DNA of 64,000 bases from Kitasatospora sp. SUK 42 (GTDB taxonomy: Bacteria > Actinomycetota > Actinomycetes > Streptomycetales > Streptomycetaceae), in assembly GCF_015776785.2 (NCBI RefSeq), contig NZ_LFMD02000007.1, positions 616,770-680,769 on the forward strand. The letters are read 5' to 3'. Below, in pieces: positions 39,469 through 43,568 of the stretch. The position numbers and the translations under genes are program-made. Within the stretch, counting starts at the first letter, position 1. Each line of letters opens with the position of its first letter. The notes under the pieces were generated by a model. That model had not been told where the DNA came from, searched no databases, and saw only the letters and a program-made list of their open reading frames with translations.

Positions 39469-40680
39469 ATGTACTCCTCAGCGACGACCCCCACGCCGAC
39501 CGCGACCCGCGCCGCGCTGCGACCCCCCACCGCAGCCGCCGGCCGTCCCGGTCCCAAGCAGGTGCCCCCGACGAGCCGTCCGGCGGCTCCTCGCGGCACC
39601 GAGGGCCGGTCGACGGACACCCTGGTCCCGGTCGGCCGTACGGCGCTGGGACTGCGCGGCCCCGAGGCCGCGCCGCCGGCCGGGCACCGCCTCCCGCTCG
39701 CCCGTCAGATCGACGGCCAGGTGCTGCGGGCCCGGCGGCCCGGCCAGCCCGCCGGGCCGGAGCGGATCGACCCGGCGGCGCTGCAGACCCCGGCCGTGCG
39801 GGCCGCGCTGGCCGGTGTCGCGCGGATATGTCCCGCGTTCACCCCGCGCCAGGTACTGCGCGAGGGCAGCCGCCACATCCTGGTGGCGGGCACCATCGGG
39901 CGGGCTCCGGTGGTCGCCAAGTGCCTGGCGCCGCAGGCGGTGCGGAGTGAGTACTTCGAGCAGCTGGTGGCCGACTTCCACCACGAGGTCGCGGTCTACC
40001 GGGCGTTCGTCCGGCACCGCCCGCCGGTGCGGCTGCCCCGGCTGGTCGCGGCCGACCACGACCGCTGCGTGCTGGTCATGGAGCGCGTTCCGGGGCGCCC
40101 GGCGGCCCGCGAGCGCCACCCGGTCAACGCGCCCACCCCGGGCGAGGTACGGGCGCTGCTCGGCGCCGTACGGACGCTGAACCTGTGGCGGCCGCCGAGC
40201 GACGTGTTCCGGCCGCGCCTGGACTACCAGTTGGAGATCGCCCGCTACCACTCGGTGGGCCAGCTCACCGACCGGGACGCCGGCGACCTGCGCGGCCTGC
40301 TGCACGGCCTCGGCCACACCCCGCTGCAGCTGTGCCACGGCGACGCGCTGCTGAGCAACATGCTGCTGGCGCCGTCCGGGCCGGTCCTGGTCGACTGGGA
40401 GCAGGCCGGCTGGTACCTGCCGGGCTACGACCTGGCGGTGCTGTGGAGCGTGCTCTCCGGCGACACCGCGGCCCGTCGCCAGATCAGCCAACTCGCCCAG
40501 AGCGGCGGCACGATGGCCCGGGACGCGTTCCTGGTGAACCTGGTGCTGGTGCTGATGCGGGAGATCCGGCTGTACGACGTGCCGGGCGCCGGCGAGGAGC
40601 AGCGGATCATGATCCGCCGGCTCTACGACGACGCCGCGCTGGCCCGTCGGGCCGTCCGGGCCGCGGTCGGGACGCGCTGA
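39469..40680 (+). CDS. Phosphotransferase-family (APH-like) kinase
   Basis: A 403-residue protein. Residues 1-75 are a Thr/Pro/Ala-rich, probably disordered leader. From about 120 a kinase fold follows: [20 protein letters not shown] with the ATP lysine, [15 protein letters not shown] as helix [14 protein letters not shown] as the hinge, [18 protein letters not shown] as the catalytic loop, and [20 protein letters not shown] as the metal-binding segment. All key residues are present. The substrate is unknown; APH-like proteins phosphorylate small molecules or sugars. The ATG lacks a strong ribosome site (AGGGACC about 10 bases upstream). Divergent from the NsdA-like gene and convergent, 13 bases apart, with the flavoenzyme gene. 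Confidence 0.82.
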
Positions 40681-40693
40681 GTCCAGCGGGCCG

Positions 40694-42013
40694 TCACGGC
40701 CGGGCGCCCCGCTCCAGGGCGGCCCGGCCGGCGGCCTCCAGCACGGTCTCGTCCGGCGCCAGGTGCACCCGGCTGCTGAGCACGTCCCGCAGGTAGCGCT
40801 CCAGCGGGTGACGCCGGCTCAGCCCCGGGTTGCCGGTGAGTGCGACCGCCTGCTGGACCGCCGCGGTGGCGGCCCGGGTGGCCAGCAGGTGGGCCGGGCC
40901 GGTCCGGGCCACGGCGTCCGGCTCGCCCCGGTCCACCCGGGGGGCCAGGCCCGCCACCAGTTCCTCGGCGCCGATCAGTTGGGCCTCGATCTCGCCGAGC
41001 GCGCAGCGGTAGCGGGGCAGGGTGCCGAGCGGTTCGGTCAGGTTGGCCGGGGTGCGCTGGTTGAGGAAGCGGACCAGCCAGGACTCCGCGGCCCGGGCGA
41101 CACCGATCGCCACCGCGGAGAGGGCCAGATCGTGCCAGGCGCGGGCGAGTTGGACCTCCGCGTCGTCCTGGCGGGCAGGAGTGCCGAGTCCGAGCGCGAG
41201 TTCGGCCGGCACCCGGACCCGGTCGAGCACGACGTCGTGGCTGGCGCTGGCCCGCAGGCCGAGCTGGTCCCAGGTCGGGTCGATCTCCAGGCCCTCGCTC
41301 TCGCCGCGGACCAGGAAGGTCCCGACCCTCGGCTCGGGCTCGTCGGTCCGCGCGGTGACCGCCATCCAGGCCAGCGCCTCGGCGCCGGTGCAGTAGGTCT
41401 TCCGGCCGGTCAACAGCCAGCCGGAGCCGTCCCGCCGGGCCACCGTCCCGGGCAGTTCGCCCGGCCGGCCGCCGGGCTCGGCCCGGAGCGTGTTGACCAG
41501 CGCGGGCCCGCGCCGGGACTCGGTGAGCAGTCGCCGGTAGCCGGCCGTCGGCCAGCTCGCGCGGCGGGCCTGCTCGGCGTGCTGGAGCAGGGTGCAGGCG
41601 GTGACCACCGCCACCGAGGCGTCGCCGCGGCCGAGTTGGGCGAGCACCCGGACGGTGTCGGCGAGCGTGCCGCCCGGTCCGCCGTACCGCTCGGAGACGG
41701 TCAGGGTGAGCAGGCCGGCCTCGTGGACCGCCTCGATGCCCTGGTACGGGAAGGTGGCGTCGCGGTCGTGCTCCTCGGCGCGGGCGGCGAGCAGGTCGAC
41801 CACCCGGGGCAGCCCGGCCAGGGCGGCCTCGACCGCCGAGCGGTCGGGCGCGGAATGGCCGGAACCCGACGGCTCGTCTCGGCCCCGGTCGTTCGAGGGT
41901 TCGGTCCGGCGCCGGTCGTTCGAGGGGCGTTCGACGGTGGAACGATCATCGGACGAACGTTCATTGGGCGAACGGTCGTCCGACGGGCGGTCGGTGGCGG
42001 CGGTGATCGTCAT
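40694..42013 (-). CDS. Acyl-CoA-dehydrogenase-like flavoenzyme (SfnB/DszC type)
   Basis: A 439-residue flavoprotein of the acyl-CoA dehydrogenase fold: N-terminal helices, then RYGGPGGTLADTVRVLAQLG, a central beta domain (GSGWLLTGRKTYCTGAEALA, WDQLGLRASASHDVVLDRV) and a C-terminal helical domain of type 2 (WHDLALSAVAIGVARAAESW). No catalytic acyl-CoA glutamate is evident, and the C-terminal type matches flavin monooxygenases used in sulfur scavenging. Residues 8-55 are an unusual Asp/Arg/Ser-rich low-complexity stretch. GGAGG lies 10 bases before the ATG. A cysteine-containing leader peptide lies 167 bases upstream, so sulfur-responsive control is likely. Substrate is inference. Confidence 0.82.
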   Translation of the reverse strand: MTITAATDRPSDDRSPNERSSDDRSTVERPSNDRRRTEPSNDRGRDEPSGSGHSAPDRSAVEAALAGLPRVVDLLAARAEEHDRDATFPYQGIEAVHEAGLLTLTVSERYGGPGGTLADTVRVLAQLGRGDASVAVVTACTLLQHAEQARRASWPTAGYRRLLTESRRGPALVNTLRAEPGGRPGELPGTVARRDGSGWLLTGRKTYCTGAEALAWMAVTARTDEPEPRVGTFLVRGESEGLEIDPTWDQLGLRASASHDVVLDRVRVPAELALGLGTPARQDDAEVQLARAWHDLALSAVAIGVARAAESWLVRFLNQRTPANLTEPLGTLPRYRCALGEIEAQLIGAEELVAGLAPRVDRGEPDAVARTGPAHLLATRAATAAVQQAVALTGNPGLSRRHPLERYLRDVLSSRVHLAPDETVLEAAGRAALERGARP

Positions 42014-42180
42014 GGTGCTGGTGCCTCCGGGCGGCAGCGTGGGCTCAGCGAGTGCGGACGGCACGCCGTACGGGCGCGCGGAACCGGTCAGCGGCTCCGG
42101 AGGTCAGCGCACGGCGCGCCCCCGGATTCGGCGCCGACCCGGTCCGGTCGGCCACCCGCCGCCACGGGGACGAATCCCCC

Positions 42181-42264
42181 TCAGCGGCCCGGACACGCCG
42201 CGCTGGCGGTGCGTCGCAGGTCCAGGTGCCTGCGGCGGGTCAGCAACGGAAAACGGCACGACAT
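42181..42264 (-). CDS. 27-residue leader peptide (probable cysteine/sulfur attenuator)
   Basis: The ORF reads MSCRFPLL then TRRRHLDLRRTASAACPGR. The core RRHLDLRRTASAAC matches the recurring actinobacterial leader-peptide pattern (R-x-H-x-D-L-x-R-x-x-S-A-x-C) found ahead of sulfonate, sulfate and flavoenzyme genes. The ATG is 7 bases after a -10 hexamer, so translation would be leaderless. Two Cys codons (TGC at 3, TGT at 24) could report cysteinyl-tRNA supply. The flavoenzyme gene follows 167 bases downstream on the same strand. The attenuation mechanism is inference from related uORFs. Confidence 0.75.
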   Translation of the reverse strand: MSCRFPLLTRRRHLDLRRTASAACPGR

Positions 42265-42271
42265 GTCCGCG

Positions 42272-42301
42272 ACTTTACGAACCTGTGATCGATACCGTCA
42301 A
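42272..42301 (-). promoter_or_regulatory. Promoter for the leader peptide and flavoenzyme transcript
   Basis: On the minus strand TTGACG (42296-42301) and TAAAGT (42272-42277) are 18 bases apart. The start point expected 7 bases later coincides with the leader-peptide ATG at 42264, giving a leaderless mRNA. Confidence 0.75.
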
Positions 42302-42330
42302 GCAGCGTCCGGCCCCCGGGCAGGGGGCGG

Positions 42331-42825
42331 TCAGCCCTGCTGGAACATGTCCGCCGGGAGCGGCTTCAGCAGCTGATACAGGTCGTCCGAAATCGGTCGG
42401 TCCCACGACGCGATGGTGACCAGGACGCCGTCGCTGCGGCCGAACTGGGCGCAGAACACGCGTTCCTCGCTGACCTTGACCTTCTTCACGATCAGCAGGT
42501 CGTCCCCGAGCATCACCGGGAAGTCCTCGGCCGAGGCGAACTCGACCGGCTCGTCGTTCTCCAGCGCCGCGAGCAGCTGCCGCACCTCGAAGGGCACGCC
42601 GTCGCCGGTCTCCCGGGCGGGCGAGCCCTCGGGGAGGTTGCCGATGAACATCGCCGGGCCTCTGCCGCCGAACAGGTCGTAGCGCAGGAAAATCCCCTGG
42701 CAGGAGCCGTCCGGGCCGGTCATCATGGCCGCACCGAAGTCGCCGGGCCAGTCGCCCGGGTCCATGGCGAGCACGTCGAAGTCCGGACCGGCGGGCTGGC
42801 CGGAGCGACGGCGGAGAAAAGACAT
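42331..42825 (-). CDS. Conserved hypothetical protein, cytosolic
   Basis: A 164-residue protein with no family that I can name. It starts with a short basic segment (SFLRRRSGQPAGPDFDVLAM), is acidic overall, and reads as a mixed alpha/beta domain: MTGPDGSCQGIFLRYDLFGG, FMIGN-like AMFIGNLPEG, LLAALENDEPVEF, and a C-terminal VFCAQFGRSDGVLVTIASWD. No membrane segment, signal or metal motif. The ATG is the first plausible start; longer frames upstream read as non-coding. It sits upstream of the leader-peptide promoter on the same strand. Confidence 0.7.
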   Translation of the reverse strand: MSFLRRRSGQPAGPDFDVLAMDPGDWPGDFGAAMMTGPDGSCQGIFLRYDLFGGRGPAMFIGNLPEGSPARETGDGVPFEVRQLLAALENDEPVEFASAEDFPVMLGDDLLIVKKVKVSEERVFCAQFGRSDGVLVTIASWDRPISDDLYQLLKPLPADMFQQG

Positions 42826-43568
42826 GGGAACATCGTACGTGCCCAGCACACCACGCTCGCGAGGTGGGTGGGGCGCCGACGGGGCACCGGCCGGAGATCG
42901 ACGCTCAGAGACCAATGTTGACTCTGAGCAACCGTCCGGGCTACGTTCGGTTCAGCACGACAGCCGTTCTGGGTTTCACCCTTCGGGGGGACGGCATGTC
43001 GCAACGCGGCCCTACACGCGTTTCCCTCACTGTGCACTTGTCGTGCCGAACTGCCGAGCACCCAGCTTCGTCGTCGCACACAGCGCAACACAAGCCAACA
43101 GTTCCATGCAACAAGAGCCAGATCCGCGGGGCCCCGGCCCGTCGCTCCCGTGGATCTGCTCGGGACGCCGCCGCGTGGGGGCGTGCGGGTCCCGAGCACA
43201 GGTGCCGTCATCCGAGTCGCTCTCGGGCTTCGGCGCCAGCCTCCCGGCGACTGCCGGCCCCTCGTGGGCCGGGACCGGCCGACGCACCCCGGTGCGCAGG
43301 GGATGACTGGGAGGCATGGCCTGGCAGCGCTGCCGGGCTGCACAGCAGGCGCCGTGTCTGGCCGCGTGGGGGCGGTGGGCACGGCGTCTGCCTGTGCTCA
43401 TACTCTGAGCTGCGTTTGTCTAACAGTCAACAGAAATTCTGACGGGGCACGCTCAATAGATCATCAGTTGTGATGATCGGTGTCGAAATCATCCACGGAA
43501 CGGATCCGCCCGTTCCCGCCCGCTGCCGTGCTCGGCACCGGGCGGGGGCCGCTCCGCGGGGACCTGCC
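42826..43568. other. 743-base stretch without a supportable gene
   Basis: A vegetative-type promoter pair TTGACT (42918-42923) / TACGTT (42942-42947) points rightwards, and an ATG at 42996 follows GGGGGGAC, but the resulting 149-residue frame (MSQRGPTRVSLTVHLSCRTA) has Arg/Ser/Pro composition and no domain. The stretch has more A/T-rich patches than its flanks, notably 43400-43500. It precedes an orphan DUF397 gene, so it may be the remains of a lost partner gene, but I cannot identify one. Confidence 0.5.
43459..43478. promoter_or_regulatory. Perfect palindrome in the gene-free stretch
   Basis: GATCATCA and TGATGATC are perfect inverted repeats around GTTG, in an AT-rich patch; a related GAAATCATCC follows. 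It has the look of a repressor site, but no regulator or target is adjacent. Confidence 0.5.

Follow-up and report, generated by a model that had tools for sequence, protein, structure and literature searches.

A conserved, predicted leaderless cysteine leader peptide before a flavoenzyme gene of Kitasatospora: a likely cysteine-responsive attenuator

Introduction

Leader-peptide attenuators are usually pictured with runs of the codon whose amino acid is sensed, and the arrest peptide TnaC responds to tryptophan. In mycobacteria, according to what Canestrari et al. reportedly described in 2020, stalled ribosomes free a blocked ribosome-binding site.

The leaderless Cys short ORFs of mycobacteria were first proposed by Shell et al. 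in 2015 (PMC4633059, available in part), and cysteine-responsive leaderless short ORFs of this group are cited in the accessible text of PMC9031893, PMC9094748 and PMC13236596. The citing papers, in their available parts, describe translation attenuation on Cys codons in mycobacteria (e.g. PMC9031893). Ribosome arrest peptides such as TnaC are covered in the accessible part of PMC10941005. For Streptomyces lividans, the available portion of a transcriptome study lists eight leader peptides, none of which is of the Cys-leader type (PMC8079986). One of its entries, the metNIQ leader, is printed in Table 4 of the same paper (partial text) as methionine-dependent; it ends in RCMCRRMCAF, which includes three Cys residues, and it might sense cysteine instead.

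Here we describe a short leader ORF that precedes a flavoenzyme gene in Kitasatospora sp. SUK 42. The window, i.e. the whole stretch of DNA that was analysed, is 64,000 nt long.

Results

Promoter, leader ORF and flavoenzyme gene

The locus is read on the minus strand of the window and comprises the following elements.

42296-42301, minus strand: -35 hexamer TTGACG, from a promoter scan
42272-42277, minus strand: -10 hexamer TAAAGT, 7 nt 5' of the leader ATG, from a promoter scan
42181-42264, minus strand: leader ORF MSCRFPLLTRRRHLDLRRTASAACPGR, 27 codons, above the cutoff of NF042934
42193-42195, minus strand: putative sensor Cys codon TGT, residue 24 (Asp15 + 9), kept in orthologues
42183-42181, minus strand: leader stop codon TGA, from the open-reading-frame reading
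42024-42028, minus strand: Shine-Dalgarno (SD) sequence GGAGG of the flavoenzyme gene, 10 nt before its ATG at 42013
40694-42013, minus strand: flavoenzyme of the acyl-CoA dehydrogenase superfamily, 439 amino acids, the presumed controlled gene

The two hexamers are separated by a spacer of 18 nt, and the scan of positions 41900-42450 returned this one site, compared with a mean of 0.0 across 50 shuffles. Because TTGACG-N18-TAAAGT ends 7 nt 5' of the ATG at 42264, the message should begin at the leader ATG, and a leaderless start is predicted at 42264 on the minus strand. The initial annotation had likewise read a consensus promoter that places the transcript start on the ATG of a 27-codon ORF, and the scan bears out this prediction. 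The spacer of the promoter at 42301-42272 (minus strand) is nearly as conserved as the hexamers among orthologous promoters. Many of these promoters carry TTGA-N9-TCAA, and the copy of this genome at 42301-42272 ends in TCAC; a regulator site in the conserved spacer is possible.

The leader peptide matched the NCBIfam model NF042934, "putative leader peptide", with 32.5 bits (cutoff 27, E 4.6e-8). Its scores against the mycobacterial Cys-rich leader models NF042936 and NF042933 were 19.7 and 10.1 bits, respectively, which lie far under their cutoffs of 45. Two Cys codons are present in the leader ORF, at residues 3 and 24, with no contiguous Cys run. The Cys at residue 24 is kept throughout the orthologous leaders, with TGT as its codon in 28/28, and the Cys at residue 3 comes and goes. 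The gene upstream (42331-42828, minus strand) has no significant family match in NCBIfam or Pfam and gives no link to sulfur.

The leader would be the first ORF of the flavoenzyme message, and its stop codon lies 167 nt from the flavoenzyme ATG at 42013, the distance given in the initial annotation. The protein, queried against NCBIfam and Pfam with one extra codon before the ATG, exceeds the cutoffs of Pfam PF02771, PF02770, PF00441 and PF08028. It scores 109.3 bits against SfnB (TIGR04022), whose cutoff is 430.9, and 30 bits against the DszC model, whose cutoff is 850; since both scores are far under their cutoffs, the earlier label "SfnB/DszC type" is valid at the superfamily level only, and the enzyme is SfnB-related yet below the cutoff of that model. 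When the residues from 41887 on were compared with solved chains, the best sequence matches were 5z8t (E 8e-49) and 5gj7 (9e-49), "acyl-CoA dehydrogenase type 2 domain protein". Among the records searched, the nearest named one is from Streptomyces sp. FH025, 96% identical in the flavoenzyme, a ranking from which records of the host's own genome may be excluded. The flavoenzyme is probably a sulfur-scavenging oxygenase.

Conservation of the leader at orthologous loci

Matches to the flavoenzyme were found in 70 of the 150 genomes sampled from the host's family. Of the 30 best orthologous loci, 28 have the leader upstream of the gene (it was not seen at L028 and L044), as do 29 of 34 named flavoenzyme loci, a set that overlaps the 30 best and leaves out a 35th locus, L210, which is a remote 26% match. 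A TANNNT -10 element is positioned 6 or 7 nt 5' of the ATG in 26 of the 28 orthologous leaders, the exceptions being L039 and L045, and TTGACG is present in the 26 orthologous upstream stretches compared. Across 14 core codons of the 28 leaders the changes are mostly synonymous, with a pN/pS of 0.33. The short distance between promoter and start codon extends beyond the flavoenzyme loci: among 176 distinct leaders, 80 have a gap of 7 nt between the -10 element and an in-frame ATG or GTG, another 20 have a gap of 6 nt, and any other gap between 0 and 35 nt occurs in at most 10.

The NF042934 score, the promoter and the conservation at 28/30 loci make the leader more than a chance frame, and comparison supports it as a real, conserved, predicted leaderless Cys leader of a known family. 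The likeness of its core to sulfur-linked actinobacterial leaders, which had been noticed at first reading, is confirmed by the family score.

Distribution of the family and its link to sulfur genes

A search of the host genome with NF042934 returned eight places at E<=1, of which four score over the cutoff, one at 26.9 bits and three at 24.4, 18.3 and 15.4 bits. The motif occurs in a short ORF at every one of them, and the flavoenzyme leader is among the eight. Since weak matches at E<=1 also occur in 6 of 14 control genomes, none over the cutoff, the weakest places of the host genome rest on architecture and not on score. According to sequence reading, the leaders of this genome precede genes for nitrite/sulfite reductase, rhodanese, a ThiS-like ORF (which we take to be CysO-like) with a cysteine-synthase-like gene, the flavoenzyme, cysteine dioxygenase, a 2OG-Fe(II) oxygenase, a luciferase-like monooxygenase and FMN reductase. 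The Pfam counts, which include the first genes behind seven of the eight leaders, agree with this reading.

In a survey of the host's class, up to 13 NF042934 matches were seen per genome, and 94 of 148 genomes had a match above the model's cutoff, versus 0 of the 14 control genomes. In a sample of the phylum, 6 of 119 genomes had such a match, and all six belong to the class of the host. The Pfam families behind 120 distinct leaders include NIR_SIR (21), DUF4395 (20), Rhodanese (16), ThiS (9), Bac_luciferase (8), CDO_I (8), PAPS_reduct (6), SBP_bac_5 (6) and ROK (5), followed by FMN reductase, SDF symporter, APS kinase, TauD, sulfatase and others with three cases or fewer each; these figures come from a list that shows 25 of the 37 families, and the starts of the main genes were assigned by script rather than annotation, so that some downstream genes may be wrong. 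The sulfur/cysteine reading of the leader is well supported by these comparisons of sequence.

Several of the downstream genes deserve mention in their own right. DUF4395 proteins are encoded behind 20/120 Cys leaders, for example at L047, which marks this uncharacterized family as a candidate for a role in sulfur metabolism; genes for ROK and family-5 binding proteins are repeatedly found in the same position. The same leader precedes the cysteine dioxygenase genes at L013 in the host genome and at 7 other loci. To judge from its name, this enzyme consumes cysteine, and its presence is odd for a switch that would be ON when cysteine is short, unless the enzyme acts on other thiols.

An invariant UGU at a fixed distance from the conserved peptide

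The leaders were aligned on their invariant Asp (D), D+9 being the position nine residues after it. Of 137 leader loci, 133 were parsed; L156 and L164 had TGT at D+9 on inspection, and L068 and L159 remained unparsed. Cys is at D+9 in 131 of the 133 parsed leaders, and all 131 codons are TGT, as are all 120 once identical cores are removed. These 131 leaders span 73 genomes and 40 genera. The other Cys codons of the same leaders are mostly TGC (44 TGC and 3 TGT at D+2; 31 TGC and 9 TGT at D+7), and those of the downstream ORFs comprise 382 TGC and 69 TGT.

NF042934 itself favours Cys at D+9, and therefore the spacing is tested solely by leaders located otherwise; as a protein model, it cannot favour TGT. 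Loci were thus also chosen by their downstream gene. For sulfite reductase, a leader was found at 20 of 30 loci, with Cys at D+9 in 18 and TGT in 18/18, and three of the 20 leaders (L231, L236 and L240) stand at an upstream distance of over 1 kb and are possibly the leaders of other genes. For rhodanese, a leader was found at 27 of 30 loci, all 27 with Cys at D+9 and TGT in 27/27, and the 29 leaders at the named flavoenzyme loci all have Cys at D+9, with TGT in 29/29. Overall, the distance from Asp to Cys is 9 in 74 of the 76 leaders located via the downstream gene, in a search that used the motif with a small score bonus for Cys at any later position and at loci that overlap the earlier ones. 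The two exceptions, L234 and L235, have Cys at D+10, which is again encoded by TGT.

When all loci were combined, 196 distinct 48-nt cores matched the motif near a stop codon with no Cys required, the cores being distinct by DNA and drawn from overlapping sets of loci. Cys is at D+9 in 191 of these, with TGT in 191/191. The remaining five are one chance match, the two D+10 cases, L016 and L112. In L016, from the host genome, Cys occupies D+7 and D+10 and is encoded by TGT each time, and L112 has Ser instead of Cys. The deviations at L016, L112, L234 and L235 are natural tests of the spacing rule. The base after TGT is C or T in 180 of the 191 cores, versus 105 of 277 after Cys codons in the downstream ORFs. 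Since the leaders are related by descent, the 191 cores are not independent trials; nevertheless, these peptides differ in their remaining codons. Indeed, the Arg and Asp residues and the neighbouring hydrophobic residues are kept as amino acids with varying codons, and the Cys is kept as codon and distance. A switch from TGC to TGT exactly at D+9 in poly-Cys leaders was considered and rejected: in five such leaders, D+7 is TGT in four, D+8 is TGC in five and D+9 is TGT in five.

UGU is read by wobble and, with a weak pyrimidine context on its 3' side, makes a place of slow decoding; known arrest peptides have a peptide segment held at about 9-13 residues ahead of the codon being decoded. The invariant UGU at one fixed place points at the decoding of Cys-tRNA as the signal, and the sensor looks like a conserved nascent peptide combined with one slow Cys codon, from which we infer peptide-dependent arrest.

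Attenuation by the codon alone would share the cysteine-attenuator core of this explanation and differ from it on the part played by the peptide: the ribosome would slow at the Cys codon for lack of Cys-tRNA, the peptide would be idle, and the motif would be kept for another reason, e.g. RNA pairing. A slow-decoding site would be expected to show just such a UGU with a pyrimidine after it, and the published mycobacterial case is described, in the accessible text, as elongation speed on contiguous Cys codons (PMC9031893). However, if the Cys codon alone mattered, there would be no need to keep the Arg, Asp and hydrophobic residues while their codons vary, nor to hold the Asp-to-Cys distance at nine in leaders found through their downstream genes. 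We regard codon-only attenuation as a serious contender whose chances fall somewhat short of even.

Output of the leader within the family

The relation between leaders and the SD of the next gene was examined in the 97 of the 120 leaders that have a good SD; the other 23 were set aside for a weak SD or low GC3. Complementarity to the leader's own SD peaks just past the Cys codon and over the leader stop, and in many leaders the sequence ...TCCTGAC pairs against GTCAGGAG at the SD. Pairing of the leader tail from nt +3 to +21 was matched by 1 of 5000 permutations and that from nt 0 to +24 by 7 of 5000, compared with 477, 2951 and 4896 of 5000 for the other stretches tested. With one vote per cluster of downstream genes (22 clusters), the number of matching permutations rose to 227 of 5000 (+3 to +21) and 630 of 5000 (0 to +24), and the pairing is marginal.

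The cost of opening the SD was computed for the 76 of those 97 leaders that have a UTR of 35-200 nt, by folding only the RNA beyond the ribosome edge, which was counted from the start of the UGU. The mean cost decreased from 6.57 to 4.99 kcal/mol as the edge moved from +4 to +12; it was nearly flat up to +4 and flat past +12, with no comparable step elsewhere, and the 20 cluster means went from 5.74 to 4.84. In about 30% of the 76 leaders the cost drops by more than 1.5 kcal/mol between 0 and +12, and 71% gain no more than 1.5. When UGU occupies the A site, the edge of the ribosome lies at about +12. By the folding model, stalling at this codon would make the SD of the downstream gene accessible in about 30% of the 76 testable leaders; in about a third of them, an SD-blocking sequence would lie under the stalled ribosome. 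Such release agrees with the mycobacterial account, in which stalling reportedly unblocks the ribosome-binding site.

A second possible output concerns Rho, in which the waiting ribosome would shield or expose a C-rich Rho-loading stretch past the leader stop. The 80 nt past the stop of 122 leaders are indeed rich in C and poor in G (C 0.44, G 0.28; C>G in 95%), unlike the stretch upstream of the same leaders (C 0.34, G 0.34; C>G in 46%), and the skew behind most Cys leaders is as expected of Rho loading sites. The flavoenzyme locus does not show it: G outweighs C there (C 0.34, G 0.46), and just 54% of the 28 orthologues have more C than G. Rho loading by C-rich RNA was therefore rejected as the flavoenzyme output, a family trend in which this locus does not share, and we consider the Rho-dependent version unlikely.

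A peptide that acts in trans as a product, its position being incidental, would account for the conserved amino acid sequence. It fits poorly with up to 13 matches per genome before different, mainly sulfur, genes, and a role in cis is further favoured by the invariant synonymous codon and by the SD pairing that part of the family shows under a stalled ribosome, so that we give the trans reading very little credence. That the ORF is a chance reading frame and the promoter alone matters can practically be dismissed: larger open frames on the opposite strand do overlap the leader ORF, but the NF042934 score, the pN/pS value and the same leader before other sulfur genes stand against it.

RNA structure at the flavoenzyme locus

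An alignment (A1) of 18 of the 28 orthologous leaders was used for a consensus fold, and the candidate RNA elements between the sensor codon and the flavoenzyme gene are listed below.

42187-42193, minus strand: UCCGGGC, complement of the SD context GCCCGGA, starting at the U of UGU (consensus fold, 18 sequences)
42166-42180, minus strand: hairpin GGGGGAUUCGUCCCC, directly 3' of the leader stop (consensus fold)
42097-42103, minus strand: CCTCCGG, perfect complement of CCGGAGG at the SD, a second candidate anti-SD in the UTR
42061-42079, minus strand: UTR hairpin GCGCGCC...GGCGUGC (consensus fold)

Helix 1, formed by UCCGGGC and the SD, has 96.0% of its cells paired and 0/7 pairs changed on both sides, i.e. 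it is conserved without covariation. In helix 2, the hairpin after the stop, 97.8% of the cells are paired and 2/5 pairs are changed on both sides among the 18 sequences; the corresponding values for helix 3, the UTR hairpin, are 96.8% and 1/7. The mean cost of opening the SD in 27 of the 28 flavoenzyme leaders (L046, which has no GGAGG, was omitted) is 7.34 kcal/mol with the ribosome edge at 0 and 7.34 at +12. Because none of the seven pairs covaries and the opening cost is unchanged, we rejected the gating of the SD by UCCGGGC, and SD release by a ribosome at the Cys codon was likewise rejected for the flavoenzyme locus, with no gain in SD access across the 27 leaders.

No intrinsic-terminator-like site (GC hairpin plus U run) was found in 41900-42450, the fold of leader plus UTR is not unusually stable (z +0.72), and the four Rfam matches obtained up to E 5 for 40000-43500 are all far under their gathering scores. 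The attenuation by Cys-tRNA or cysteine supply suggested in the initial annotation thus survives in part: a Cys leader before sulfur genes and a fixed UGU speak for it, and no support was obtained for a terminator, an unusually stable fold or SD release at this locus.

Discussion

Taken together, we consider it likely that the flavoenzyme leader is a cysteine-responsive, ribosome-mediated attenuator. Judged from its promoter, ORF, family, conservation and sulfur link, together with the fixed spacing and the invariant UGU-pyrimidine, it very probably serves to gauge the supply of cysteine and to control an enzyme that likely scavenges sulfur. In the proposed mechanism, the transcript would begin at the leader ATG, so that the first ribosome would start on the leader. 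The conserved peptide R-R-x-x-D-L-x-R would then enter the exit tunnel, and nine residues past the Asp the ribosome would reach the single UGU, which is followed by a pyrimidine. If Cys-tRNA is plentiful, the ribosome would pass and terminate three codons on. If Cys-tRNA is short, the ribosome would wait at the UGU, and the waiting ribosome would act on the leader RNA, by altering either its structure or its fate, so that the flavoenzyme would be produced. The cysteine response, its ON state under shortage and the stalling at UGU are accordingly phrased here as a proposal.

For the Actinomycetes as a whole, we tentatively suggest, at slightly less than even chances, that the family is a cysteine-tuned arrest peptide, in which R-R-x-x-D-L-x-R primes one UGU and different operons use different outputs. 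A tunnel segment at a fixed distance would make one UGU in a poor 3' context enough, and the same sensor would feed differing outputs, with SD release in some operons and another route for the flavoenzyme. If this is true, up to about a dozen operons per genome (<=13 matches) may be coordinated without a regulatory protein.

One Cys codon seems to be enough for sensing, unlike the usual picture of such attenuators. The new element is that 191/191 distinct leaders with Cys at D+9 use the same synonymous codon, which is not the favoured one, at a constant distance from the conserved peptide; the literature searched, mostly papers outside subscription and accessible in part, described neither this UGU constraint nor the present flavoenzyme leader. 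The UGU signature may serve as a tool for finding the actinobacterial cysteine regulon, including unknown genes behind such leaders, and the leader would tie the flavoenzyme to sulfur supply.

Among described systems, NF042934 is a cis_reg_atten model, and the flavoenzyme leader scores above its cutoff. The model differs from the locus in representing amino acids only; it covers neither the UGU-pyrimidine constraint nor the leaderless promoter nor the output step. In Rhodobacterales, uORFC-8-2 before cysS is a Cys-codon attenuator before a Cys gene, as far as the available text goes (PMC8632094), and the leader described here may be of this type. That system has tandem Cys codons, dominated by UGC, and an intrinsic terminator in the same partial account, whereas the flavoenzyme leader has one conserved UGU and no terminator-like site. 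With TnaC and other arrest peptides, the leader would share conserved residues at a fixed distance from the arrest point, arrest here being the proposed step.

The closest relatives are the mycobacterial attenuators, as described in the accessible portions of their literature. Both consist of a leaderless small ORF with a Cys near its end, the leader here being leaderless as predicted from its promoter. In mycobacteria this ORF comes first on a sulfur or cysteine message; many other leaders of the NF042934 set precede clear sulfur genes, and the leader here would come first on the message of an SfnB-related flavoenzyme. Leaders with RRAVDLCR and a run of six Cys, e.g. L047, fall into the same NF042934 set, and part of this set also appears to share SD blocking as an output. 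In contrast, the mycobacterial leaders have a Cys tract and the flavoenzyme leader has one conserved Cys, before another gene and in another clade, and SD release is unsupported at the flavoenzyme locus in the 27 leaders examined. Since it has no Cys tract and shows no SD release, we call the flavoenzyme leader a variant of the mycobacterial attenuators; by analogy, it very probably works like these cysteine-responsive leaderless attenuators.
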